Shown here: positions 16,997 through 30,713 of the stretch, in pieces
Numbering within the stretch: position 1 is the first letter of the stretch
How the letters are laid out: every line of letters begins with the position of its first letter
DNA from: Neoroseomonas soli
Lineage (GTDB): Bacteria > Pseudomonadota > Alphaproteobacteria > Acetobacterales > Acetobacteraceae
Length of the DNA: 42,354 nucleotides
Assembly: GCF_018129065.1 (NCBI RefSeq)
Contig: NZ_JAAEDM010000041.1
Coordinates: forward strand, 1 to 42,354
Direction of reading: 5' to 3'
Made by a program: the position numbers and the translations under genes
Notes under the pieces: generated by a model
Seen by the model: the letters and a program-made list of their open reading frames with translations, nothing else
Database searches by the model: none
What the model was told of the DNA's origin: nothing

Positions 16997-17020
16997 GCAA
17001 TGTTTTGTCATGATCGAGCA
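16997..17020 (+). promoter_or_regulatory. Metal-regulon motif, copy 1 (before the RND operon)
   Basis: GCAATGTTTTGTCATGATCG with trailing AGCA, the most divergent of four related copies. It ends 64 bp before the GTG start of the RND adaptor and points toward it. The shared core TTTGTCATGA is identical to copy 2. Part of it, TTGTCAT, resembles the half-site I recall for the CusR copper box. Confidence 0.6.
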
Positions 17021-17084
17021 ACGCCCAAGACGTGCTGCGCCGTCAGATTGAGATGGTCCTGATCGGGACTCAGGGGGGGCGCGC

Positions 17085-18782
17085 GTGCTGATTCGTATTT
17101 TGCTGCTTGTCATGCTGCTGGCCGCACCCGGCGTCCGCCCTGCCTTTAGCCACGAGGGCCATTCCGATGGTGACGCGCTCGCGCCGCCGGCGGCGGCGGC
17201 ACCGCGCGCCGAGGCGCATTCCGATCTGTTCGAGATCGTGGCGGTCGTGGGACCAGACCGACGGCTTTGGCTCTACCTCGACCGGCACGCAACATCGGAG
17301 CCCATCGACGGCGCCACGGTGCAGGTCACCGTCGATGGTGAGGACATCGGAACGGCCACCCGCGCGAGTGAGGCGGTCTATGTCCTTACCAATCCGGCTC
17401 TGGATCGGTCAGGCCAACGGAACCTGGTCTTCACCATCACTGCCGGCGAGGACATGGACCTGCTGCCAGCGACGCTTGAAATCCCTGCTGCGGCCGCCGC
17501 TCTGACCGCAGCACCAGCTGCGCAGGACCTGCTCTCGACGGCGTTACGTGAGCCCTACATGTGGGCGGCGGGCCTGCTCCTGCTGCTGCTCGGCATGGCG
17601 ATTGGCCGCGCTGCCGCGCCACGACCATTGCCGCCGCTTGTCGTCGTCGAACCGCCAGCAGCCGGCACGCGCCCCCATGCTTTGCCATCCGGCGCGCCGA
17701 TTGCGGAACGTGTGGCTGCTGCGCCGGCGGTGCTGGCGCTAGCGGCGATTCTGCTCGTGCCGGTGATTTCCCGGGCGCAGCCGTTGGACGCACCTCGGCG
17801 ACAACCTGACGGCAGCATCTTCATGCCCAAGCCCTCACAGCGTCTGCTCGGCTTGCGAACCGGCCCGGCCGAGTTGGGCGAGGCCTCGGTCACAATCCGC
17901 CTGACCGGACAGGTTGTGGCGGACCCCAACGCCTCCGGCCGCGTCCAGGCGTCCGAGGCGGGGCGCATCGAGCCAGCCGAAGGCGGTTTCCCGGCGCTTG
18001 GCCAGCGCGTGGCACGCGGCGAGGTGCTCGGCTTCGTCGTGCCGATCATGGCGGCGCAGGATCGCGTCGGCGTACGCGCCAGCATCGCCGAGCTCGATGC
18101 GCTCATCGTCATCGGCGAGGCGCGGGTTCGCCGCCTGACCGCGCTGACCGGAACCGTCGCGGCGCGGGAGATCAGCGATGCCCGTGCGGAGCTCGAAGGC
18201 CTACGCCAGCGGCGCGCGGCGAACCTGCCGGCGGTGACGGGGCGGGAGCCGATCGTGGCGCCCTCCGCCGGGCTGATCAGCGTGATCCGCGTCGCCGCCG
18301 GCCAAGTGATCCAGGCGCAAGAGCCGCTGTTCGACATCGTCGATCCCGGCCGGCTCTGGGTCGAGGCCATCGCCTTTGACCCCGCCGCGGTGGCGGAGGT
18401 TTCGGCGGCCTCCGCCGTCACGGCCAGCGGCCAGGCGCTGCGGCTCGGCTTTGTCGGGCGTGGCATGACCTTGCGCCAACAGGGGCTGCCCCTGCATTTC
18501 CGCATCGATGCCGGCGCCCCCGGACTTGCCGTGGGGCAACCGGTGACGGTCCTGGTGGAGACGCCGCGCCGCACAGCCGGGATCGTGCTGCCGGCCGAAG
18601 CCGTGGTGCGAAACCCCGAGGGCGGCCAGGTGGTCTATGAGATGCCGAGCGCAGAGCGCTTCCTGCCGCGGCCCGTGCGGGTCCAACCCCTCGACGGCCA
18701 GCGTGTCCTGGTAACGGCCGGGTTGGACCGCGGGGCACGGGTGGTGACCAGCGGCGCCGGGCTGATCGCCCAGGTCCGCTAG
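17085..18782 (+). CDS. Efflux RND transporter periplasmic adaptor subunit with an extra N-terminal membrane-linked domain
   Basis: A 565-residue protein, GTG start preceded by a G-rich ribosome site. Residues 1-22 are a signal peptide, then a His/acid patch (SHEGHSDGD) and a beta-type domain to about 145. A membrane helix follows at about 158-176 ([21 protein letters not shown]) and a second hydrophobic, signal-like segment at about 210-231. From about 245 it is a normal HlyD/CusB-type adaptor: [20 protein letters not shown], a lipoyl/hairpin region with [42 protein letters not shown], and a membrane-proximal C-terminus. CusB-like adaptors are usually 380-500 residues, so the front 230 residues look like a fused second protein. 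It joins the CusA-like pump, 2 bp downstream, to an outer-membrane channel not encoded here. Confidence 0.88.
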
Positions 18783-18784
18783 CC

Positions 18785-21700
18785 GTGTTCAACATCCTCG
18801 TTACAGCCAGCCTGCGGAACCGCCTGTTCGTCCTCGTCGCGGCAGCGATCCTGGTGGTCTACGGCGCGCTGGCGCTGCAACGCCTGTCGGTGGACGTCTT
18901 CCCCGACCTCAACAAGCCTGTCATCACCCTGATGACCGAGGCCGAGGGCCTCGCGCCGGAGGAGGTCGAACTTCTCGTCTCCTACCCCATCGAGACGGCG
19001 ATGAACGGCATGCCGGGCGTCACCCGCGTGCGCTCCGTCTCGGGTGTCGGGCTGTCGATTGTGTTCGTGGAGTTCGACTGGGGCACCGACATCTGGGTGA
19101 ACCGCCAGCAGGTCGCGGAGCGCCTCTCGCTGGTGCGGGCACAGCTGCCGGCGAATGCCGCGCCGCAGATGGCGCCGATCTCCTCCATCATGGGCGAGAT
19201 CATGCTGGTGGCGATGTCCACCGATGGCCGCGCCAGCCCGATGGAGCTGCGCGAGTTGGCCGATTGGGTGGTGCGGCCTCGACTGCTCACCATCCCCGGC
19301 ATATCCCAGGTGATCCCCATCGGCGGCGAGGTCCGGCAGTATCGCGTGACACCCGATGTCGCGCGGATGCATGCGCTGGACGTGACCGAGGCGCAGGTGG
19401 TCGCTGCCCTTCGGCATTTCGGCGGGAACACCGGCGGCGGCTACGTGGATCAGGCGGGGCGGGAATACCTGATCCGCAACATCGGCCGCACCACGCGCCT
19501 CGAGGATCTCGCGAATACGCCGGTGGCCGTGCGGGCTGGCCAGCCAATCCCGCTGCGCCAGGTCGCAACGGTCGATTACGCCGCGCGGTTCAAGCGTGGC
19601 GAAGCTGGCAGTATGGGCCAGCCTGCCGTGATTCTCTCGATCCAGAAGCAGCCATTCTCCGACACCGTGACCCTGACGACGCAAGTGGAAGCGGCGCTGG
19701 CGGAGTTGCAGCGCGTCATGCCACCGGGTGTAACCGCGAACAACGTGCAGTTCCGCCAGGCCGATTTCATCGCGGCCTCGATCGGCAATGTCGAGAAGGT
19801 GCTGCTGGAGGCGGTCGCGGTGGTGGCCGTCGTGCTGTTCCTGTTCCTGCTGAACGGGCGCACCACCTTCATCTCACTCACCGCGATCCCGCTGTCCGTG
19901 CTGATCACGGTGGTGGTGTTTCAGCTGCTCGGCCTGTCCATCAACACCATGACGCTGGGCGGTCTCGCCATCGCGATCGGCGAGCTGGTGGATGACGCGG
20001 TGGTGGATGTGGAAAACGTGTTTCGCCGGCTGCGCGAGAACCGCGGGCGGCCGGACCCGCAGCCCGTCATCATCGTGGTCGCCAAGGCAAGCCAGGAGGT
20101 CCGCTCCGGCATCGTCTACGCGACGATGATCGTCATTCTCGTCTTCGTGCCGTTGTTCGCGCTGACCGGCATCGAGAGCCGGTTGTTCGCGCCGCTCGGC
20201 ATCGCCTACATCGTCTCGATCCTGGCGAGCCTCATCGTCTCCATCACCGTTACGCCGGTGCTCTGCTACTACCTGCTGCCCCGCATGAAGCAGATGGAGC
20301 ATGAGGACAGCGCTCTGGTGCGCGTGCTCAAACGCTGGAACGAGCGCGCGCTGTTTTGGGCCTTTCCCCGCGCCCGCTTCGTGTATCTGCTGGCGGGACT
20401 GGGCGTGGCGGGCGCGCTGGCGACCGTGCCCTTCCTGCCGCACTCCTTCTTGCCGCCCTTCAACGAAGGAACGCTGACGATAAGCCTGCAATTCCAGCCC
20501 GGAATCAGCCTGGCCGAAGCCAACCGGCTCGGCCGGCAGGCGGAACTGCTGATCATGCAGGTGCCAGAGGTGCACACCGTCGGGCGCCGCACCGGCCGCG
20601 CCGAGCTGGATGAACATGCGGAAGGCGTGCATTCCTCAGAGATCGACGTCTCCCTCCATGCCTCGGCACGCGGCAAGCAGGAGATCTCGGCCGATATCCG
20701 CGCGCGTCTCGCTGTACTGCCCGGCAGCGCCAACGTCGGCCAGCCTATCGGGCACAGGCTGGACCATATGCTCTCCGGCGTGCGCGCCGAGATCGCGCTC
20801 AAGATCACCGGCGATGACCTGGACACCCTTCGCACCCTGGCCGAGGGCATGCGGCAGCGCCTGGCCACCATCCCCGGCCTGACGGATCTGCAGGTGGAGC
20901 GCCAGATGCGCGTGCCGCAGCTTCAGGTGACGGTAAACCATGAACGCGCCGCGCTGTATGGCGTCTCAGCCGCATCAGTGGCCGAGGCGCTGCAAGCCCT
21001 GTCAGGCGGCCAGGTCGTCAGCCAGGTGGTGGACGGCGCGCGGCGCTTCGACGTGGTGCTGCGCCTCGGCGAGGCCGACCGCACTGGCGCCGGGCTGGCC
21101 GCCGTGATGATCGAAACGCCAGGCGGACGGGTGCCGCTGTCGCTGCTGGCGGAGCTGCGCGACACCGATGGCCCGAACCAGATCCTGCGGGAGAACGGCC
21201 GGCGTCGCATCGTCGTCCTTGCCAACACCGATGGCAGCGACATGGCCGCCATCGTGGCGCGCATCCGTGCCGAGATGGAGGCTGCGGCGCTGCCGCCCGG
21301 CTACTTCTTTGCGCTGGAGGGAACCTTCCAGGCGCAGGAGGAAGCGGCGCAGTTGATCGCCGGGTTGTCCCTGGTGTCCTTGGCGCTGATCTTCATGGTG
21401 CTCTACAGCCGCTACAAATCCGCGGTTCTGGCGCTGATCATCATGGGCAACGTGCCCCTGGCGCTCGTCGGCGCCATCGCGGCGCTGTGGATCGCAGGCC
21501 AGCCACTTTCGGTTGCGTCCATGATCGGCTTCATCACGCTCGCGGGCATCGCCACGCGCAACGGTATCCTCAAGGTCAGTCACTACCTGAATCTGGCGCT
21601 GCTCGAGGGCGAGCCATGGGGCCTCGGTCTCGTCATCCGCGGCAGCCTCGAGCGCCTGACGCCTGTCCTCATGACGGCGCTCTCCGCCGGCTTCGCCCTC

Positions 21701-21898
21701 ATCCCGCTGATGATCGGCGCCGGGGAACCTGGCAAGGAGATCCTCCACCCCGTCGCGGTGACGATCTTCGGCGGGCTGATCACGGCGACCCTGCTCGACA
21801 CCTTCCTGACGCCGCTGCTCTTCCACCGCTTCGGCCGACCGGCCCTCGGCCGGCTGCGCGAACGCCAACAGGAATTGAAAGTCGCGGAGGCCTATTGA
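18785..21898 (+). CDS. Heavy-metal efflux RND pump, CusA/CzcA family
   Basis: A 1037-residue inner-membrane proton antiporter. GTG start at 18785, 2 bp after the adaptor stop. The N-terminus has [14 protein letters not shown] and [20 protein letters not shown], signatures of the heavy-metal (HME) subfamily. Transmembrane helix 4 carries [19 protein letters not shown] (about 398-416) with acidic residues D403, D404 and E410 for proton relay. The second half repeats the fold, with [19 protein letters not shown] and [13 protein letters not shown]. Length is standard. With copper genes around it, Cu(I)/Ag(I) is the expected substrate. I cannot align the Met triad of CusA reliably, so Co/Zn/Cd or Ni cannot be excluded. 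Confidence 0.92.
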
Positions 21899-22308
21899 TG
21901 ACAACGAAAGGATACCGCCACATGAACCGTCGCATGCTCGTGCTCTCTCTCGCCGCCCTGCCGCTCCTGCCGGTGACAGTGCGGGCCAGCAATACGCGCG
22001 GACCGCATGGCGGCCACCGCACCGACATCGCAGGCGGCCATGGCGAGTTGGTCGCCGAGGGCGGCGAGCTGCGCCTCTACCTGTCTGACAACGCTTACCG
22101 TGCCCGCTCGGCCGAGGGCGCCTCCGCCCAGGCGGTCGTGCTGGCAGCCGGGAAGCAGACGACGGTTGCACTGGCGCCGGCCGGCGCCGAGATGCTGCGG
22201 GGACAGGGCGACTTCACTGCGGCACCGGGCATGCGCGTGGTGGTGAGCCTCACCCTGCCCGGACAGCGGCCGGCGCAGGCCCGCTTCACGCCCATGGACC
22301 AGAACTGA
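21898..22308 (+). CDS. Small exported His-containing protein of the metal efflux operon
   Basis: A 136-residue secreted protein. The ATG at 21898 overlaps the pump stop (TGATG) and has GGAGG 7 bp upstream. A second ATG at 21922, behind AAAGGA, would give a 128-residue form with an equally good signal peptide (MNRRMLVLSLAALPLLPVTVRA). The mature N-terminus has histidines in GPHGGHRTDIAGGHGELVAE, followed by a small beta domain (LRLYLSDNAYRARSAEGASA). This domain resembles the N-terminal extension of the adaptor two genes earlier, which also has HSDLFE and a DRRLWLYLD strand. Possible role: periplasmic metal binding or delivery to the efflux complex. No named family is assigned with certainty. 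Confidence 0.75.
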   Translation: MTTKGYRHMNRRMLVLSLAALPLLPVTVRASNTRGPHGGHRTDIAGGHGELVAEGGELRLYLSDNAYRARSAEGASAQAVVLAAGKQTTVALAPAGAEMLRGQGDFTAAPGMRVVVSLTLPGQRPAQARFTPMDQN

Positions 22309-22330
22309 CCCGGAGGCCGCATCCAAGCCG

Positions 22331-23068
22331 ATGATGCCCGACACCCTTCCGCCCGAGGCCCATATCCTCGTCGTCGAGGATGACGGCGAGATGCGAACGC
22401 TGATCGCGAAATTCCTGCGCCAGAACGGCTATCGCGTGACCGGCGCGCGAGACGGGCGTGAGATGTGGGAGACGCTGGGCAATGCCCCGGTGGATCTCAT
22501 CCTGCTCGACGTGATGCTGCCCGGGCAGTCCGGCCTCGACCTGACCCGCGCGCTGCGGGCGAAGACCCGGGTTCCGATCATCATGGTCACCGCCCGCGGC
22601 GACGAGACGGATCGCATTGTCGGCCTCGAACTCGGCGCGGATGACTACATTCCAAAGCCGTTCAGCCGGCCCGAACTCCTGGCCCGCATCCGGGCGGTGC
22701 TGCGGCGTGTGCAGCCGGCCGAGGAGGCGCCGGTCGCCGGGCTGGTCGGCGACCGTATCCTCTTCGCCGGCTGGGCGCTGGACACGCGCCGGCGCGAACT
22801 GGCGGCGCCGGACGGCACCTCCGTGGACCTCTCCGGCGGCGAGTACGACATGCTGCTCGCCTTCTGCGAGCACCCGCAGCGGGTGCTGTCGCGGGACCAG
22901 CTGCTGGACCTCGCGCGCAACCGCGTCTCGGACAGTATCGACCGTTCGGTGGACGTGATGGTGAGCCGGCTGCGGCGAAAGCTCGAGCCGACGGAGCAGA
23001 GCCCGGCGCTCATCAAGACCATTCGCGGCGCCGGCTACATGTTCATCCCCGCCGTGACCCGCGGCTGA
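22331..23068 (+). CDS. OmpR/PhoB-family response regulator of the metal island
   Basis: A 245-residue two-domain regulator. The receiver domain has the acidic pair VVEDD, the phosphoacceptor D60 in DLILLDVMLPG, the T in MVTARGDE and the conserved K in IPKPFSRPEL. The C-terminal winged helix has LSGGEYDMLLAFCEHPQRVLS, RSVDVMVSRLRRKLE and IKTIRGAGYMF. It is immediately followed by its kinase (stop and start overlap as TGATG). Located inside a copper efflux cluster, it is the best candidate for the protein that reads the repeated TTTGTCRTGA motif found before four operons (inference). Confidence 0.93.
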   Translation: MMPDTLPPEAHILVVEDDGEMRTLIAKFLRQNGYRVTGARDGREMWETLGNAPVDLILLDVMLPGQSGLDLTRALRAKTRVPIIMVTARGDETDRIVGLELGADDYIPKPFSRPELLARIRAVLRRVQPAEEAPVAGLVGDRILFAGWALDTRRRELAAPDGTSVDLSGGEYDMLLAFCEHPQRVLSRDQLLDLARNRVSDSIDRSVDVMVSRLRRKLEPTEQSPALIKTIRGAGYMFIPAVTRG

Positions 23069-24426
23069 TGCGCAGGCTGCTGCCCGACACGCTGGGTGGG
23101 CGGATCGTCCTGGTCCTGCTGGTCGGCTTGCTTGCCTTCCACCTGGGCAGCTTGTGGCTGCACCAGAGCGGCACGGAGGCGGTGCTCGGCACGACGCGCG
23201 ATCATCAACTGGCCGAGCGCCTGATCGCCGCGAAGCGGGCAGTGGCCGAGCTCCCAGCAGCCGACCGTGAACGCACCGCGCACGCGCTGTCATCCGTCGG
23301 CCTGGACATGCATTGGACGCCGATTCCCACGGTTCGCCTGACCGAGGAAACCAGCGCCCGCATCGAGACCATCCGCGCGCGCCTCCTCGAACTCGAGCCG
23401 AACCCCGCCGATGCGGGGATGCGGCTTGGCTACCTGGATGAGGCCGGCAGCGGCACGCCGGCGGGCGAACAGGGCCGCCATCTGCTGGTGGGCGCGCTGC
23501 AGCTGCCGGACGGATCCTGGCTGAACTTCGCCGCGGCACTGTTCCGCCCCATGGTGGCCGAGCACGGCGCCTTCTTGCCCACCACCCTGTCCACCACGGC
23601 GATGGCCGCGGGAATCCTGATCCTCGGCTTCCTCGTCGTGCGCCTGATCGGCCGGCCACTGCGTGCGCTCTCGATCGCAGCGGATCGCATCGGCCGGCCA
23701 GGGGAGAGCGCGCCGGTGTCGGAGGACGGACCAAGGGAGGTCCGCCAGGCCGCGCAGGCCTTCAACCGCATGCAGGCGCGGATCGACCGCCTGATCGCGG
23801 ACCGCACCCAGGCACTGGCCGCCGTCAGCCACGACCTGCGCACACCGATCGCCCGGCTCCGGCTGCGCGCCGGCTTCATCGAGGATTCCGAGACGCAGCG
23901 CCAGATCGACCTCGACCTTGACGAGATGGAGGGCATGATTGCCTCCACCCTCGCCTATCTGCGGGGCGAGGCCGAGCAGGAGCAGCTGCGCGTCGCCGAC
24001 CTGGCGGCGATCCTCGAGACCCTGTGCGACGATGCGGCGGATGCTGGGCACCGGGCGTCGTATGAAGGTCCGTCGCAGGCACGCCTGGCGTGCCGGCCGA
24101 TCGCGATGAAGCGCGCTCTCGCCAACCTGATTGACAATGCGTTGAAGTACGGCGGCGTCGCGCGCGTGACCTTGCGAGACAGCGGGACCATGGTGGAGAT
24201 CTCGATCGAGGACGACGGTCCGGGCATTCCGGACCAGGAAATGGAGGCAGCCTTCGAGCCCTTCCGCAGGCTCGATCCCGCCCGGAACCCGGAATCCGGA
24301 GGCTCCGGCCTGGGTTTGACGATCGCGCGACAGGTCGCGGAACGGCATGGCGGGACGGTCTCCCTGGGCAACCGTCCAGGCGGTGGACTGGTCGCGACGC
24401 TGACCATCCCGCGTGCTAGACAGTAG
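23068..24426 (+). CDS. Sensor histidine kinase of the metal island
   Basis: A 452-residue membrane kinase. One membrane helix at about 13-32, a periplasmic sensor of about 140 residues, a second helix at about 175-194 (AMAAGILILGFLVVRLIG), a HAMP linker, then HisKA with the phosphorylated H255 in AAVSHDLRTPIARLRLR. The ATPase domain has NLIDNALKYGG (N box), EDDGPGIP (G1), and GGSGLGLTIARQVAERHGG (G2). It overlaps the response regulator by 1 bp. The periplasmic domain has a few His and Met residues (AHALSSVGLDMHWTP) but no clear Cus-type metal site, so the sensed metal is not readable from it. Confidence 0.93.
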   Translation: MRRLLPDTLGGRIVLVLLVGLLAFHLGSLWLHQSGTEAVLGTTRDHQLAERLIAAKRAVAELPAADRERTAHALSSVGLDMHWTPIPTVRLTEETSARIETIRARLLELEPNPADAGMRLGYLDEAGSGTPAGEQGRHLLVGALQLPDGSWLNFAAALFRPMVAEHGAFLPTTLSTTAMAAGILILGFLVVRLIGRPLRALSIAADRIGRPGESAPVSEDGPREVRQAAQAFNRMQARIDRLIADRTQALAAVSHDLRTPIARLRLRAGFIEDSETQRQIDLDLDEMEGMIASTLAYLRGEAEQEQLRVADLAAILETLCDDAADAGHRASYEGPSQARLACRPIAMKRALANLIDNALKYGGVARVTLRDSGTMVEISIEDDGPGIPDQEMEAAFEPFRRLDPARNPESGGSGLGLTIARQVAERHGGTVSLGNRPGGGLVATLTIPRARQ

Positions 24427-24429
24427 GGA

Positions 24430-24906
24430 ATGACGATGATGACGATCCGACGGCGCAGCCTGCTGGTTGGCTTCGGCATGTTGGCCGCCTCGCCAGCCGC
24501 GGCACAGGGCGGCCCGCTCGTCGAGGTCTGGCGCGACCCGAATTGCGGATGCTGCAGCGGGTGGACTGCTCACATGCGGGATGAGGGCTTCTCCGTCCGG
24601 GAGACTGTGCTTCCCGCGCTCGGACCGGTGCGCCGCATGCTCGGCACCCCGGCGGACCTGCTGTCATGCCATGCGGCCCGCGTACAGGGCGTCGTGCTGG
24701 AGGGCCATGTCCCGGCGCTGGCGGTGCGCCGGGTGCTCGCCGATCGGCCGGCGGGCCTGCTCGGCCTGGCCGTGCCCGCGATGCCCGTAGGGGCGCCGGG
24801 AATGGAGGTCCCGGGCCAGCCGGACGACGTCTACGACGTTATGGCCTTCGACACTGCCGGCCGGCACGCGCCGTTCATGCGCTTCAGGGGCGGGCGGCCG
24901 ATCTGA
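24430..24906 (+). CDS. DUF411 family metal-binding protein
   Basis: A 158-residue exported protein, signal MTIRRRSLLVGFGMLAASPAAA with a twin-arginine-like start. The DUF411 hallmarks are WRDPNCGCCSGW (C39, C41, C42), the loop SCHAARVQGVVLEGHVPA with C80, H81 and H93, and GAPGMEVPGQPDDVYDVMAFD near the end. DUF411 proteins are small periplasmic thioredoxin-like proteins of copper and silver clusters, thought to bind metal through these Cys/His residues. The gene starts 3 bp after the kinase stop, so it is in the same operon, and converges on the beta-propeller gene. Confidence 0.92.
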   Translation: MTMMTIRRRSLLVGFGMLAASPAAAQGGPLVEVWRDPNCGCCSGWTAHMRDEGFSVRETVLPALGPVRRMLGTPADLLSCHAARVQGVVLEGHVPALAVRRVLADRPAGLLGLAVPAMPVGAPGMEVPGQPDDVYDVMAFDTAGRHAPFMRFRGGRPI

Positions 24907-24917
24907 GCCGGCCGCCC
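24892..24917. terminator. Bidirectional hairpin between convergent genes
   Basis: GGGCGGCCG at 24892-24900 and its complement at 24909-24917 form a perfect 9-bp stem with an 8-nt loop that contains the DUF411 stop codon. It lies 12 bp from the end of the leftward beta-propeller gene and can end transcripts from both sides. Confidence 0.5.
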
Positions 24918-24929
24918 TGGGGCGAGCGA

Positions 24930-25961
24930 TCAGGCCTGGGACCAGGTCACGCCATTCGGCGTGCGGCCGACACGGATGCGTAGCAGCACCGCCTGGGTCG
25001 CCACGTCGATCTCGGCTAGCGTGTTGTCATAGAGGTTGGTCACGAAGGCGCGGCTTCCGGTCCCGCAGACCACGACGCCGTGCGCACCGCGGCCGGTCTC
25101 GATCGTGGCGACGACCGCTCCGGCCGCGACATCGATCACCGACGCAGTCGTGCCCGGCGCGCTTCGTGTTCCCTCGTTCGCAACGTAGAGCAGCCGGCCA
25201 TCCGGCGTGGCGTAGACCTGCACGGGTCCGCGCCCGACGGGGATGCGGCGCAGGACCCGCCGGCTGCGTGCGTCGATCTCGGCGACCGCATTGGCGCCAC
25301 GGAGCGAGACGTAGGCCCGCGAACCGTCCGGTAGGAAACCAACCTGCACCGGCGAGGGACCGACCTCGATCCGCGCGACCTGGCGGCCCTCGGCCAGATC
25401 CACCACGGAGACGGTGCCATCCTTCACATTGGCGAGCCAGGCCTCGCGACCATCGGGGCTGAGGCGCAGCCCGTGCGGGTAGTCGCCGACAGGAATGCTT
25501 GCAGCGACGCGGCGCTGCGCGACGTCGACGATGATCAGCGCGTCGGCCTCGGAATCGGTGACGAAGGCGCGTTCGCCGGCTGCGTCCGCCACGACATGAC
25601 CGGGATGCCGGCCGGCCGGCATCTCGGCGATGATGCGCGGGGCTGCTCCCCCCACCGGTTCGAGCACCACGAGGCGACCATTGGCTCCTGCGTGGTCCGA
25701 CCCGTGCGCCCCGGCGGCGGTGCCGACCGCGAAGAGCCGGCGGCCGTCCGCCACGGCCTGGACGTTGTGGGGCGTGATTGGCACGACGACGGTGGAGACA
25801 CGGCCTGAGGCCAGGTCCACCGCGCTGATGCTGGCGCCGCCTTCGTCGGCGGTGAAGATCGTTCCGGCGCAGCCCTCAGCGGCGCGCGCGGCCGGCGCTG
25901 CGAGGAACAGGCTCGCGCCGGCGAGCAGAAGCGGCAAGTCACGGCGATGCAGGACGGACAT
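24930..25961 (-). CDS. YncE-like seven-bladed beta-propeller protein
   Basis: A 343-residue exported protein. ATG at 25961 with GAGGAGAG upstream; signal MSVLHRRDLPLLLAGASLFLAAPAARA with two arginines. The mature part is a string of about 40-residue propeller blades of the YVTN/YncE type: GRRVSTVVVPIT-like strands, LRLSPDGREAWLANVKDGTVSVVD, VGFLPDGSRAYVSLRGANAVAEID, VYATPDGRLLYVANEG and so on. Such proteins bind small ligands or partner proteins in the periplasm. It reads away from the HMA gene, and its promoter region contains copy 2 of the metal motif, so it is probably metal-induced. Its job in metal resistance is not established. Confidence 0.88.
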   Translation of the reverse strand: MSVLHRRDLPLLLAGASLFLAAPAARAAEGCAGTIFTADEGGASISAVDLASGRVSTVVVPITPHNVQAVADGRRLFAVGTAAGAHGSDHAGANGRLVVLEPVGGAAPRIIAEMPAGRHPGHVVADAAGERAFVTDSEADALIIVDVAQRRVAASIPVGDYPHGLRLSPDGREAWLANVKDGTVSVVDLAEGRQVARIEVGPSPVQVGFLPDGSRAYVSLRGANAVAEIDARSRRVLRRIPVGRGPVQVYATPDGRLLYVANEGTRSAPGTTASVIDVAAGAVVATIETGRGAHGVVVCGTGSRAFVTNLYDNTLAEIDVATQAVLLRIRVGRTPNGVTWSQA

Positions 25962-26023
25962 GGATCGGCTCTCCTCTGGTGGCCGATGTGCGGCGTTCCG
26001 CCGCTGCATGTCCCTGCGATGAT

Positions 26024-26043
26024 CGCTTCATGACAAAGCATGT
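26024..26043 (-). promoter_or_regulatory. Metal-regulon motif, copy 2 (before the beta-propeller gene)
   Basis: Read leftward it is ACATGCTTTGTCATGAAGCG, containing TGCTT, a 7-nt centre and AAGC(G), an imperfect palindrome. It ends 62 bp before the start codon of the propeller gene and points toward it. Together with copy 3 it makes a divergent pair in the 196-bp intergenic region. Confidence 0.7.
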
Positions 26044-26064
26044 CCCGAAGGAGTGCGGCGCGCC

Positions 26065-26085
26065 GCAATGCTTTGTCGTGAAACA
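26065..26085 (+). promoter_or_regulatory. Metal-regulon motif, copy 3 (before the HMA chaperone)
   Basis: CAATGCTTTGTCGTGAAACA, preceded by G, reads rightward and ends 72 bp before the GTG start of the HMA protein. It shares AATGCTTTGTC with copy 4 exactly. Confidence 0.7.
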
Positions 26086-26157
26086 GCCTTTGACCTTCCC
26101 ATCATGGGAAGCCGGACGCTTCTGCTCATCGGAACAACGGACCTCAAGGAGGATCAC

Positions 26158-26364
26158 GTGCTTCGCTTCCGGATCGCGAATATGGGCTGTGGCGGGTGCG
26201 CGAAGGGCGTCACGAGGGTTGTCCGGATCGTCGATCCGGACGCCCAGGTGACGTTCGACCTCCAGACGCGTGAGGTCAGCATCCAGGGCTGTGCCGCGGA
26301 CGCCGATCGGTTTGACCGCGAGCTGCGGTCTGCCGGCTGGAAGTCCGAACGCGTGCAGGGCTGA
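26158..26364 (+). CDS. Heavy-metal-associated (HMA) domain copper chaperone-like protein
   Basis: A 68-residue protein with ferredoxin-like HMA fold. GTG start with AAGGAGG 5 bp upstream. Strand [19 protein letters not shown] has the metal-binding CxxC (C11, C14), followed by [22 protein letters not shown] and the second helix and strand [17 protein letters not shown]. Such small HMA proteins carry Cu(I) to P-type ATPases or buffer it in the cytosol. The longer frame upstream (to 26053) has no Shine-Dalgarno and would include the operator; it is rejected. Confidence 0.9.
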
Positions 26365-26376
26365 TCCGGCCCCACA

Positions 26377-26397
26377 GCAATGCTTTGTCACGAAGCA
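26377..26397 (+). promoter_or_regulatory. Metal-regulon motif, copy 4 (before DUF305)
   Basis: CAATGCTTTGTCACGAAGCA, preceded by G, carries the full palindrome TGCTT-N7-AAGCA. It ends 65 bp before the DUF305 start and begins 13 bp after the HMA stop, so DUF305 probably has its own promoter. Confidence 0.7.
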
Positions 26398-26462
26398 ACA
26401 ACACGGACGACGTAGCCTGCCATTACGCAACGCAGGACGATCCGAACAAGGGAAAGCCTTCG

Positions 26463-27020
26463 ATGTCTCGCTTGAAATCCACTCTCGTCCTCGCCGCCGC
26501 ACTGACCGCGGGCCTCGGCGCCGGCGCCCGGGCGCAGGACGCCGATCCGCATGGGCACGGCCAGCAGCCCCAGGCGCCCGCGCAGGCGGCGCCCAGTTCC
26601 GAACGGCAGGCGCAGCTTGGCGCAGGCATGATGATGTCGCCGCAGCAGATGCAAGACTCCCATCGGCAGTTGATGCAAGGCGGTGCGACCATGCCGATGG
26701 GCCGGGGCGGGCCTGGGCAGATGCATGGCAGCCATGGCGTGGCGGCGCCTGGCGCCCAGCGCGCCGCCTCGACCACGGCCTTCATGGAGGCCAACGCGAA
26801 GATGCATCGCGACATGGCCATCACCTACAGCGGCAATGCGGACCGCGACTTCGCTGCCGGCATGATCCCGCACCACCGGGGTGCGATCGACATGGCACGC
26901 ATCGCCCTTGAGTATGGCCAGGACCCGGAAGTGCGGGCGCTGGCGCAGGCCGTCATCACCGCGCAGGAAGCCGAGATCACGCAACTTCGCAGCATCCTCG
27001 CACGCCTGCCGGCGCACTGA
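26463..27020 (+). CDS. DUF305 domain-containing exported protein
   Basis: A 185-residue protein with a signal peptide ([24 protein letters not shown]) and a His/Gln/Met-rich linker ([16 protein letters not shown], then [17 protein letters not shown] and [16 protein letters not shown]). The C-terminal DUF305 four-helix domain has [41 protein letters not shown] and [13 protein letters not shown]. The HH pair and the surrounding Met and Asp are the usual metal-binding candidates of this family. DUF305 proteins are common in copper resistance islands. ATG at 26463 is placed after AAGGGAAA. Confidence 0.9.
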
Positions 27021-27080: not shown

Positions 27081-27554
27081 ATGACGATGAGCAGCACCGA
27101 ACACGGCCCTCTGGCCGATACGATGTGGCGGTTGACTGAACTCATGCCCTGGTTCGCCGCCATTGAGGCGGGCGATCCGGCCAACCGCCAGGCCGTGGGA
27201 GCCATCGCGTTGCGCCGGCTTCAGGACGATCGGCAAGGCGCGATCACAGCCCAACTCGCGATGACGCGCAGCGCAATGGAGCACGCGACGCAGGCGGCCT
27301 CGCGCCTCGCCACTGCGCGCAATCCGATGGATGCCGCGGTTGCCCAGGCCGTCATCGGCCTGGCACTGGCGGAGTTCGCCGCGGCGCCCACGCGAGCCTG
27401 GCTGGAGATGATTTCCAGGCTGCACGCCTGCTGCATGACCATGGCGAGCGAATCTCCCGACAACTCTCCTCCGTCAAGCGAGGCAGAGGCAGAGAGCCCG
27501 GCCACGCGAGCCAGGACCCGGGCTGCCGCTCCGCCCACGTCCGAGGTGACGTAG
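27081..27554 (+). CDS. Hypothetical alpha-helical protein (faintly phasin-like)
   Basis: A 157-residue protein (ATG at 27081; a second in-frame ATG at 27087) behind GAGAGAGGAC. The first 120 residues are predicted helices rich in Ala, Met and Gln (AITAQLAMTRSAMEHATQAASRLA and VGAIALRRLQDD), and the last 40 are disordered and acidic/Ser/Pro-rich. The pattern AAPTRAWLEMISRLHACC is reminiscent of phasin-type helices, but I cannot assign it to a family with confidence. It lies between DUF305 and DUF2933 within the copper island. No signal peptide, so probably cytosolic. Confidence 0.55.
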   Translation: MTMSSTEHGPLADTMWRLTELMPWFAAIEAGDPANRQAVGAIALRRLQDDRQGAITAQLAMTRSAMEHATQAASRLATARNPMDAAVAQAVIGLALAEFAAAPTRAWLEMISRLHACCMTMASESPDNSPPSSEAEAESPATRARTRAAAPPTSEVT

Positions 27555-27613
27555 CGCGCCGGCCACGCCGCCTGGGACCCAAAGAGCCGGTAACCCTCAA
27601 AGGAGCAGACAAC

Positions 27614-27868
27614 ATGTCTGGCCATGCCCATCATCAGGCTGGCCCTTCGCCGGAACAGAGCTTCTGGCGGAGCCGCAGCGGCCTCGTCTTCATCGCCTTT
27701 GCTGTCGTCGCGGCGGTCTACCTGCTGTTCGAGCACACCGCGCACGTCGTCCAATACCTGCCGTTCGGCATCGTGCTGCTCTGTCCGCTGATGCACATGT
27801 TCATGCACGGTGGACACGGCGGGCACGGCGGTGGAAGTGGCGGCGCGCGGATCGGAGGCCAGACATGA
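27614..27868 (+). CDS. DUF2933 domain-containing small membrane protein
   Basis: An 84-residue protein: a His-bearing N-terminus (MSGHAHHQAG), two hydrophobic helices (GLVFIAFAVVAAVYLLFEHTAH and VVQYLPFGIVLLCPLMHMFMH), and a Gly/His-rich tail (HGGHGGHGGGSGG). The HTAHVVQYLPFGIVLLCPLMH core is the DUF2933 signature. ATG follows AAAGGAGCAG. Such proteins are found almost only in heavy-metal islands with an ICMT-like methyltransferase next to them, as here (overlap ATGA). The His/Met-rich tail suggests metal binding; the function is not known. Confidence 0.88.
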   Translation: MSGHAHHQAGPSPEQSFWRSRSGLVFIAFAVVAAVYLLFEHTAHVVQYLPFGIVLLCPLMHMFMHGGHGGHGGGSGGARIGGQT

Positions 27869-28524
27869 GCGGCATGCAGGGCTACGGCTTCTGGGTGTTC
27901 GCCGCAGCGAACGCCGCGCTCTTCATCGCCTTCGCCTACAGCTTCGCGCGCCCCCTGAACGCGCGTGACTGGCGCAGCTTCGGGGCGTTCTCGGCCTTCA
28001 TCGTCGCGCTCTTCGCCGAGATGTACGGCTTCCCGCTGACCATCTATCTGCTCTCCGGCTGGCTGCAGACGCGCTGGCCGGGCGTGAATTGGTTCAGCCA
28101 CGACGCGGGCCACCTGCCGGAGATGATGCTCGGGCTTGGCGTCAACCCGCACTTCGGGCCCTTCCACCTGCTGAGCACGGTCTTCATCATCGGCGGCTTC
28201 TGGCTGGTGGCGGCGGCCTGGCCGGTGCTGTTCCGCGCGGTGCGCGCCGGGCGACTTGCGACGACCGGGCCTTATGCGTGGCTGCGGCACCCGCAATATG
28301 CGGGCTTCATCCTCATCATGACCGGCTTCCTGTTCCAGTGGCCGACCCTGGTGACCCTCGTGATGTATCCGGTGCTGGTCGCGATGTACGTGCGCCTCGC
28401 CCGCCGCGAGGAGCGCGAGGCCGCAGAACGGTTCGGCCCGGAATACGCGGCGTGGCAGGCACGGGTTCCGGGCTGGTTCCCGCACCTCGGCGGAGGGGCC
28501 TCCGGTGCCGCGCGGCCGTCATGA
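27865..28524 (+). CDS. Isoprenylcysteine carboxyl methyltransferase-family (ICMT-like) membrane protein
   Basis: A 219-residue multi-pass protein. Segments around [46 protein letters not shown] and [22 protein letters not shown] precede the ICMT/PEMT core: [21 protein letters not shown], and [19 protein letters not shown]. The RHPQYxxF block binds SAM in this superfamily. The substrate in bacterial metal islands is unknown. It overlaps DUF2933 and the CopB-type ATPase by 4 bp on each side (ATGA). Confidence 0.88.
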
Positions 28525-30713
28525 GCACCGACGGCGACCCGAGAGCCCACAGACAAGGGCATGAACGCATGACCGTCGAGCACCATCATGGCCATCACCA
28601 CCATCCTGACCACGCCCCGGGCGCAACGGCGATGTCCACCCCGTCGGAGGGTGCGCAGGCCGGGCACGGTGATGCAGGCCATGGTCATGCGGGCCATGAC
28701 CACGGCGCCATGGTGGCCGAATTTCGCCGACGCTTCTGGATCTGCCTGCCGCTGACCATTGGGGTCGTGCTGCTGTCGCGGCACATTCAGATGCTGCTTG
28801 GCCTGCCGGAGTGGCTCAACTTCCCGGGCGGCGCGTTCGTCGAGGCCGGTCTCGCCAGCGTCGTGTTCTTCTATGGCGGCTGGCCCTTCATCACCGGCCT
28901 CGCGGACGAAGTGCGCCGCGGCAAGCCGGGGATGATGACACTGGTCAGCCTCGCGATCGTCTCGGCCTATATCTACTCGCTCGCGGTGCTCGCCGGCCTC
29001 GCCGGGGAAGTCTTCTTCTGGGAGACCGCGACGCTCATCCTGGTCATGCTGCTCGGCCACTGGTTGGAAGCGAAGTCCGTGCTGGGCGCCTCCGGCGCGT
29101 TGCAGGCTCTGGTGCGGCTGATGCCGTCAACGGCGACGCGCCTGGGCGCCAATGGCGCGCAGGAGGAAGTGCCCATCGCCGCGCTGAAGGCCGACGACCT
29201 TGTCCTGGTGCGTCCCGGCGCGAAGATCCCGACCGACGGCACCGTCACGGAAGGCAGCTCGTCCGTGGACGAAAGCATGCTCACGGGTGAGTCCCGACCG
29301 GTCGAGAAGGCCGCCGGTGACCGTGTCGTCGGCGGCGCGGTAAATGGTGAAGGCGCGTTGACGGTGCGGATCGACCGCACCGGCGGCGAGACCTACCTGG
29401 CGCAGGTCATCCGCCTTGTCGAGCAGGCGCAGGCGACGCGGTCCCGTACCCAGGATCTCGCCAACCGGGCCGCCGGCATCCTGACCTGGGTGGCGATCGG
29501 CGTGGGCGGCGGCACCTTCGCGGTTTGGCTGCTGCTCGACGCACCGCTCGCCTTTGCGTTGGAGCGGATGGTCACCGTGATGGTCATCTCCTGTCCGCAT
29601 GCGCTGGGGCTTGCCGTGCCGCTGGTCGTTGCCGTCAGCACCGAACTGACTGCGCGGAACGGGCTGCTGATCCGCGATCGCGCTGCCTTCGAGCGCGCGC
29701 GCAGCCTGCAGGCCGTGGTCTTCGATAAGACGGGCACGCTGACCGAAGGCCGCTTCGGCGTCGCCTCGGTCGTGCCGCTCGGCGCCGGGATGGACGAGGT
29801 GGAGGTGCTGCGCCTCGCTGCAGGGCTCGAGGCGTTCTCCGAGCATCCGATCGCCCAGGGCATCCTGCGTGGCGCGGACGAACGCGGCATCGCCCTGCCG
29901 GCGGCCACTGACTTCCGCAATCTCCCCGGCGAGGGCGCCCGCGCCACGATCGATGGGCGCACGGTCGAGGTGGTCAGCCCCGGCACGCTGCGCCGGCGTG
30001 GCATCGATGTCACGGACGGCCGTGTTGCGGCCGAGCACCTGGCCGGGCGCACCGTGGTCTTCGTGGTGGTCGACGGCACTGTCGTCGGTGCCGTGGCGCT
30101 GGCGGACGTGGTGCGGCCGGAGAGCCGCGAGGCGGTTCGCCAGCTCCAGGCGCTCGGCCTGCGCTGCATGATGCTGACCGGCGATGCCAAGCCCGTCGCC
30201 GAGCAGGTCGGCCGAGAACTCGGCCTTGATGAGGTGCGCGCCGAAGTGCTGCCGCACCAGAAGGCTGAGGCGGTGCAGGCCATCCAGGCGAAGGGCCTGA
30301 CGGTCGCCATGGTCGGCGACGGCGTGAACGACGCGCCGGCCCTCGCGCAATCGGACTTGGGCATCGCCATCGGGGCCGGCACGGATGTCGCGGCGGAGGC
30401 GGCCGACATTGTCCTGGTCAGGAATGACCCGCGGGACGTGGTGGCCATCCTGGCGCTCGCCCGGGCGACCTACGCGAAGATGGCGCAGAATCTGGTCTGG
30501 GCGACGGGCTACAACGTCATTGCCATTCCGCTCGCCGCCGGCGTGGGCATCCCCTGGGGTGTGCTGCTAACCCCGGCGGCGGGGGCGGCATTGATGTCGC
30601 TTTCCACTGTGGTCGTCGCGCTGAATGCGCGGCTTCTCGGTCGGCAGGGCGAGCATCAGCTCGCCGCCCTGCGGCAGGATATCGCGCGGCGACACGCCGA
30701 GGCGGCCGCATGA
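28521..30713 (+). CDS. copB: Copper-translocating P1B-type ATPase, CopB group
   Basis: A 730-residue inner-membrane pump. Instead of HMA domains it has a His-rich N-terminus ([12 protein letters not shown], later [15 protein letters not shown]). Helix 6 has the CPH motif ([14 protein letters not shown]358), helices 7-8 have NLVWATGYN and [13 protein letters not shown], which together define the P1B-3 CopB group rather than CopA (CPC). Catalytic features: phosphorylated D402 in [14 protein letters not shown] in the actuator domain, HP in SEHPIAQGI, and [16 protein letters not shown]. CopB pumps export Cu(II)/Cu(I) or Ag. The ATG at 28521 overlaps the methyltransferase stop. A second in-frame ATG at 28569 (MTVEHHHG, after AAGGG) is the alternative. 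Confidence 0.93.

Follow-up and report, generated by a model that had tools for sequence, protein, structure and literature searches.

The copper island of Neoroseomonas soli (Acetobacteraceae; RefSeq assembly GCF_018129065.1) lies in a stretch of 42,354 nucleotides (contig NZ_JAAEDM010000041.1, positions 1 to 42,354; hereafter the window). Four short sites in this island share a 17-nucleotide sequence, GMMATNNTTTGTCRYGA, one ahead of each of four gene groups, and are analyzed here as the predicted operator of the island's own OmpR-type two-component system. Site 1 (16997..17013, + strand; GCAATGTTTTGTCATGA) precedes a run encoding a resistance-nodulation-division (RND) adaptor, its permease, a small protein, a response regulator, a histidine kinase and a DUF411 protein; site 2 (26028..26044, - strand; GACATGCTTTGTCATGA) precedes a beta-propeller gene, site 3 (26065..26081, + strand; GCAATGCTTTGTCGTGA) an HMA gene and site 4 (26377..26393, + strand; GCAATGCTTTGTCACGA) a DUF305 gene, all four being exact matches. 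Counted from the last base of the 17-mer, the distance to the start codon is 71 bp at site 1 (adaptor GTG 17085), 66 bp at site 2 (propeller ATG 25961), 76 bp at site 3 (HMA GTG 26158) and 69 bp at site 4 (DUF305 ATG 26463). Between the divergent propeller and HMA genes, sites 2 and 3 face away from each other, 20 bp apart. An earlier note on this DNA, made from the sequence alone, had named these four positions and had each site pointing to a gene at 62 to 72 bp from its start codon; the sequences were found there, the orientation held in 4 of 4, and the distances agree with ours, given that its sites were slightly longer.

The first run (+ strand throughout) opens with the RND periplasmic adaptor (17085..18782; CusB/CzcB-like, with Pfam HlyD_D23 and HlyD_3; best NCBIfam model RND_mfp, below its cut-off), the CusA/CzcA-family heavy-metal RND permease (18785..21898; TIGR00914, 738 bits against a cut-off of 701) and a small 136-amino-acid protein (21898..22308; no Pfam family at E 0.001). 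It continues with the OmpR-type response regulator (22331..23068; Response_reg and Trans_reg_C), the proposed binder of the four sites, and the EnvZ-type sensor kinase (23068..24426; HAMP, HisKA and HATPase_c; best NCBIfam model EnvZ, below its cut-off), and is closed by the DUF411 protein (24430..24906; PF04214). On the - strand lies the YncE-like beta-propeller gene (24930..25961; PF21783 and TIGR02276 repeats), whose start was set at ATG 25961 within a listed open reading frame beginning at 26009. The HMA-domain protein (26158..26364, + strand; PF00403) is possibly CopZ-like, although the CopZ model gave 22.2 bits, far under its cut-off of 85, and the DUF305/CopM-family protein (26463..27020, + strand; PF03713) scored 114 bits with the CopM model NF049983 against a cut-off of 90. 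Downstream of it, in the same direction and with short gaps, follow a weakly phasin-like gene, a small protein, an ICMT-like methyltransferase and a copper P1B-ATPase (27081..30713, + strand), which we propose are read from site 4. From the short gaps, the gene runs of the island are likewise presumed to be co-transcribed units.

Three side observations concern these genes. The 136-amino-acid protein has the same place in five related loci (L012, L019, L024, L034 and L091), and the phasin-like gene (27081-27554; below the Pfam cut-off) is present in L091 too. The DUF305 leader holds a CCTGC..GCAGG inverted repeat (26416-26436), also retained in L091; a leader hairpin was rejected, as 81 and 46 of 200 shuffles folded at least as well.

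How far chance could produce such sites was assessed in the window genome (G000; 5.24 Mb in 216 contigs), with the reversed pattern as the control. In the window, the 17-mer of the earlier note, allowing up to 3 mismatches, matched 3 times against a shuffle mean of 0.06 (0 of 100 shuffles reached 3) and missed the adaptor site, which diverges at its right. Over the whole genome it matched 13 times against 10 in the reversed control and is thus uninformative at 3 mismatches; its 3 matches with one mismatch were all inside the island. For the refined 17-mer GMMATNNTTTGTCRYGA, the genome contains 4 exact matches, each lying in the island and facing a gene, followed by 2 matches with one mismatch and 36 with two (reversed control, 6 in total at up to two mismatches). 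The genome-wide search that the earlier note had put forward as a check placed every exact match (4 of 4) within the island, and a dispersed repeat was rejected on that ground. The palindrome TGCTT-N7-AAGCA that it had read in the sites had to be given up, as the adaptor site lacks the right arm, which relatives do not conserve either; the conserved extension of the core is its left side (GMMAT).

Sites recur ahead of copper-type genes in relatives. In another genome of the genus (G313, locus L091; regulator at 98%), all four sites are kept at orthologous places, and in Neoroseomonas alba (L009; regulator at 89%) sites stand at the propeller gene (ending GTGG), at the HMA gene (starting GTCAT) and at others, one of them before a cupredoxin gene. 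Sites also precede adaptor relatives (L012, L034, L091, L126, L127, L130, L143, L144, L227 and L270), outer-membrane-channel relatives (L122, L141, L142 and L145), DUF305 relatives (L124, L125, L127, L128, L130, L151, L153 and L269) and cupredoxin relatives (L129 and L231). Alignments of the adaptor and propeller-HMA regions show the block conserved amid diverged flanks; the whole HMA-DUF305 gap is alike in the window and L091 and carries little information. The shorter pattern TTTGTCRYGA matched exactly 13 times in the window and 22 related loci, and all 9 of the matches outside the window (some of them orthologous to one another) have G and AT in matching upstream positions, letters for which the search had not asked.

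Across 397 genomes of the family, GMMATRYTTTGTCRYGA, which owes its R at one position to relatives, gave 56 exact matches (the only kind counted) in 42 genomes, against 3 for the reversed control. Thirty of the 56 precede a copper-type gene, defined by tblastn as a relative of the adaptor, outer-membrane channel, DUF305, cupredoxin or propeller gene starting at most 400 bp downstream; one more (G329), judged by leader similarity, is followed by an adaptor-type leader before the contig ends. Restricting the pattern to the letters of the window's four sites (GMMATGYTTTGTCRYGA) left 33 matches. Of the 29 that come from genomes other than the window's, 18 precede a copper-type gene. A loose pattern, GHMATNNTTTGTCRYGR, matched 127 of the 397 genomes and is too unspecific by itself. 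With a matrix built from the window's four sites, 26 of 46 scored regions (11 of which had been fetched because of a match) beat all 60 simulated sequences.

The motif keeps company with the regulator. Close relatives of the regulator comprise 36 copies at 78 to 100% in 30 of the 397 genomes, the next standing at 72%. The motif was found in 17 of these 30 genomes against 25 of the 367 others (Fisher, 4e-11), and in 14 of 27 against 25 of 367 (7e-9) when G000, G313 and G097 were left out, with kinship ignored in both; the test used 75 regulator copies (down to E 9e-92) taken from a longer listing. The two also lie close together: 24 of the 56 motif sites are at most 10.5 kb from a regulator copy at 78% or above, 5 further sites are near one of the 39 listed copies at 60 to 72%, and exact sites are found within 10.5 kb of 16 of the 36 copies. 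All 8 of the aligned regulators from this clade (78% or above) share an identical segment, RSVDVMVSRLRRK, presumably the recognition helix judging from the protein family. The regulator scored 144.6 bits with the CusR/CopR/SilR subfamily model TIGR01387, whose cut-off is 279.2, and its best NCBIfam model, OmpR (233 against 331), is also below cut-off. As a side observation, relatives at 81 to 82% occur on four Roseomonas mucosa plasmids, and on the one inspected (CP099474.1; L247) the regulator adjoins a plastocyanin/azurin-like gene and DUF411.

The sites could instead be bound by another regulator encoded elsewhere, with the island pair acting on something else. Exact matches in 25 of the 367 genomes that have no close regulator relative speak for this, as does the fact that the island protein is tied to this DNA by reasoning from sequence. 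The proximity of 24 of 56 sites to regulator copies argues otherwise, as do the several gene orders in which sites accompany those copies and the confinement of the window genome's exact matches to the island; overall, we regard a foreign regulator as unlikely.

For the architecture of the site, 31 distinct sites were compared. The pattern used to collect them dictated the letters TTTGTC, G-7, A-4, T-3 and G+8, so that independent support comes from the unasked G and AT in 9 of 9 TTTGTCRYGA matches. An OmpR/PhoB-type tandem operator has head-to-tail half-sites at a distance of 10-11 bp. The best direct pairing (GMMAT with GTCRY; -7 with 3, period 10) reached 62% agreement of cells when 5 columns were compared and 61% with 6; for the best inverted pairing (TGACA-N5-TGTCA), the figures were 63% and 52%, respectively. 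Column scores were negative at every offset. The symmetry would accordingly be either direct, TGNMAT-N4-TGTCAT, or inverted, TGACA-N5-TGTCA, with the direct form slightly favoured. A third half-site at offset +21 is suggestive only (z 3.3 in 23 sites, thinned from 35 at 70% identity), and the offset +45 scores z 4.0 without explanation.

The half-site itself is of a familiar kind. The earlier note had compared TTGTCAT with the E. coli CusR box, which reportedly has that half-site; our literature search gave no relevant source for that box among 10 of its 29 matches. The right half TGTCAT of a CusR/AgrR-type box is present in the sites and the left half is not, and an AgrR-style inverted repeat with a 4-bp spacer was rejected, as the letters of the left half ATKACA occur in 4, 0, 2, 20, 0 and 0 of the 31 sites (the collecting pattern itself set three of these columns, but the unasked TTTGTCRYGA matches agree). 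The likeness of the half-site thus stood, in that TGTCAT fits AgrR's TGTMAT, and the standard CusR/AgrR box with inverted halves 4 bp apart did not. In Cupriavidus metallidurans, the AgrR box is ATKACANNNNTGTMAT, an inverted ATKACAN4TGTMAT with half-site TGTMAT (PMC7380067). Shared with AgrR are the half-site, the position of the regulator next to metal-resistance genes and autoregulation, the last predicted here; AgrR halves are inverted about 4 bp, whereas the left half of the island site is off that register, an inverted reading would need a 5-bp spacer, and the island regulator falls below the subfamily cut-off. For Pseudomonas aeruginosa, the boxes quoted in PMC11195947 are CTGACAn5GTAAT for CopR and GAAACn6GTAAT for CzcR; the boxes of these metal-responsive regulators are built, as proposed for the island site, from a pair of unequal half-sites spaced by roughly one helical turn, with GTnAT as the second, and related sites such as CTGACATACTTTGTCACGA (L020) approach the CopR form. 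The second half there is GTAAT rather than GTCAT, the spacing differs, and by TIGR01387 the subfamily is another. Corynebacterium glutamicum CopR (PMC3140484) recognizes a direct repeat, TGAAGATTTnnTGAAGATTT, at a single genome site; it is a copper regulator with a purely local regulon and autoregulation, as predicted for the island, its direct repeat corresponds to the slightly favoured reading of the island site, and it differs in an unrelated half-site, an 11-bp period and one genome site against four here. Known metal boxes share the half-site style of the island operator and not its exact arrangement.

PhoB, whose half-site is likewise TGTCAY, was considered as the binder, with the sites being pho boxes. 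N. alba sites such as TGTCATATTTTGTCATGA resemble listed pho boxes, among them the phoA box TGTCATAAAGTTGTCACG, and E. coli cusR/cusC also has a listed PhoB site (both PMC10294691). The pho boxes listed there have an 11-bp period, however, against 10 bp between the halves of the island sites; the window has GCAAT or GACAT, and never GTCAT, as its left half, and exact TGTCAYN5TGTCAY has no match in the genome, a strict pattern that would also miss the real pho boxes of this genome. On the spacing, the left half and the lack of exact matches the pho box was rejected, and of all the alternatives PhoB is the one to which we give the least credence.

At the HMA gene, a feature absent from the earlier note lies between site 3 and the start codon: a CueR-type promoter box, TTGACCTTCCCATCATGGGAAGC (26090..26112, + strand), beginning 8 bp past site 3, with 1 mismatch to TTGACCTTCCN7GGAAGG. 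At up to 1 mismatch, this pattern occurs at two places in the genome, the HMA gene and C118:1756-1778 (L242), the latter directly ahead of a CopA-like ATPase; at up to 2 mismatches, there are 6 matches against 1 in the reversed control. The box is retained in L091 and also in N. alba, where its left half is weaker. CueR is encoded at C54:662-1036 (L250; TIGR02044, 156.3 bits against a cut-off of 147.4), adjoining the apparent end of a P-type ATPase, and the C118 box with its ATPase and the C54 CueR gene may be two parts of a single copA-cueR locus divided by a contig break. Given the 8-bp spacing between site 3 and the HMA box and the presence of a CueR gene, the HMA promoter may combine periplasmic copper, read by the island regulator, with cytoplasmic copper, read by CueR. 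A literature search for CueR paired with a two-component system at a single promoter returned no paper; a parallel is nevertheless offered by Salmonella cueP, which is under CueR and the Cpx two-component system (PMC13201067). There, CueR and an OmpR-family two-component system act on one copper gene, as is presumed for the HMA gene from the layout of its promoter. In Salmonella, Cpx answers N-chlorotaurine and is not devoted to copper, whereas the island regulator would be the partner of CueR here, on a gene for an HMA protein.

The conserved block might also be part of the promoter, namely the -35 element of an alternative sigma factor. The fixed direction and the narrow 66 to 76 bp to the start codon in the window would suit such an element; yet the CueR-type box at the HMA gene has a separate -35-like TTGACC 8 bp downstream, and distances to genes are more variable in relatives, which makes a sigma-factor element very unlikely in our view.

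Several findings weigh against reading the sites as the operator of this regulator. The P values for the association take no account of kinship, 20 of the 36 regulator copies have no exact site within 10.5 kb, and 13 of the 30 regulator genomes have no exact match. Twenty-five of the 56 family matches are not ahead of a copper-type gene, 14 of them at two conserved places in two other genera (g61 and g74) and 11 elsewhere. By the window matrix, 6 of the 46 regions are borderline (1 to 5 of 60 simulations as good) and 14 are no better than chance; the latter include nine regulator regions (L213-L215, L217, L222-L225 and L228; 20 to 51 of 60 as good), along with five named relatives (L011, L013, L015, L016 and L019). 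Site symmetry fits the direct and inverted readings about equally, and the score at offset +45 counts here as well. In all nine of the chance-level regulator regions, a variant, GAAATNNCTTGTCA, stands before a cupredoxin relative (39 to 47% to that of N. alba), a pattern whose support is weakened by its having been drawn up after these mutually related regions were viewed. Either the operator has diverged there together with the protein, or those regulator copies act elsewhere.

Three observations on other occurrences stand apart from the copper genes of the window. A form of the motif, GAAATACTTTGTCATGA, is conserved 412 bp before a gene in g61 and g74 (L131, L132, L134, L136-L138, L140 and L149), with no copper link; by impression, we take its product to resemble a B12-binding radical-SAM enzyme. 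Another, GACATGTTTTGTCATGA, recurs before a small membrane protein gene (L133, L135, L139 and L146-L148), presumably of the YaaH/SatP type judging by resemblance, and may mark a different regulator using a similar site. Locus L270 (G365) holds an apparently broken island, in which operator and adaptor are kept, the permease is matched for residues 1-82 only, and a stretch matching the kinase C-terminus follows the remnant.

Taken together, we consider the four sites to be the operator of the island's own OmpR-type two-component system with a probability of roughly 80%. The earlier reading of one island regulon under an OmpR pair is carried forward in this, since motif and regulator clade co-occur and lie close, without its palindrome and without the standard CusR/AgrR box. 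In the mechanism we propose, the EnvZ-type kinase (23068-24426) would sense periplasmic copper (or silver) and phosphorylate the regulator (22331-23068), which would bind GMMATNNTTTGTCRYGA immediately upstream of the promoter, through a pair of half-sites spaced by roughly one helical turn. The regulator would thereby switch on four units, namely the adaptor-RND-regulator-kinase run, the beta-propeller gene, the HMA gene and the run from DUF305 to CopA. Autoregulation is expected because site 1 heads the run that contains the regulator, which would raise its own level through that site, and at the HMA promoter its periplasmic input would be joined with the cytoplasmic input of CueR. We infer from sequence the binding, phosphorylation, metal identity, activation over repression, co-transcription and joint use of the HMA promoter.

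A literature search that covered few subscription papers found no such copper operator described for Acetobacteraceae. The four sites would give a sequence definition of a copper regulon in this family, from which targets become predictable, and they suggest that two-component pairs from outside the usual heavy-metal subfamily can govern a Cus-type efflux island. More tentatively, and at somewhat less than even odds, members of the Acetobacteraceae may run periplasmic copper defence by an OmpR/EnvZ-type pair outside the CusR/CopR subfamily, the operator having moved with the pair between gene orders and the HMA gene serving with CueR as a two-compartment gate. A promoter with a site directly before a CueR-type box raises the question of whether one promoter can integrate copper from two compartments.

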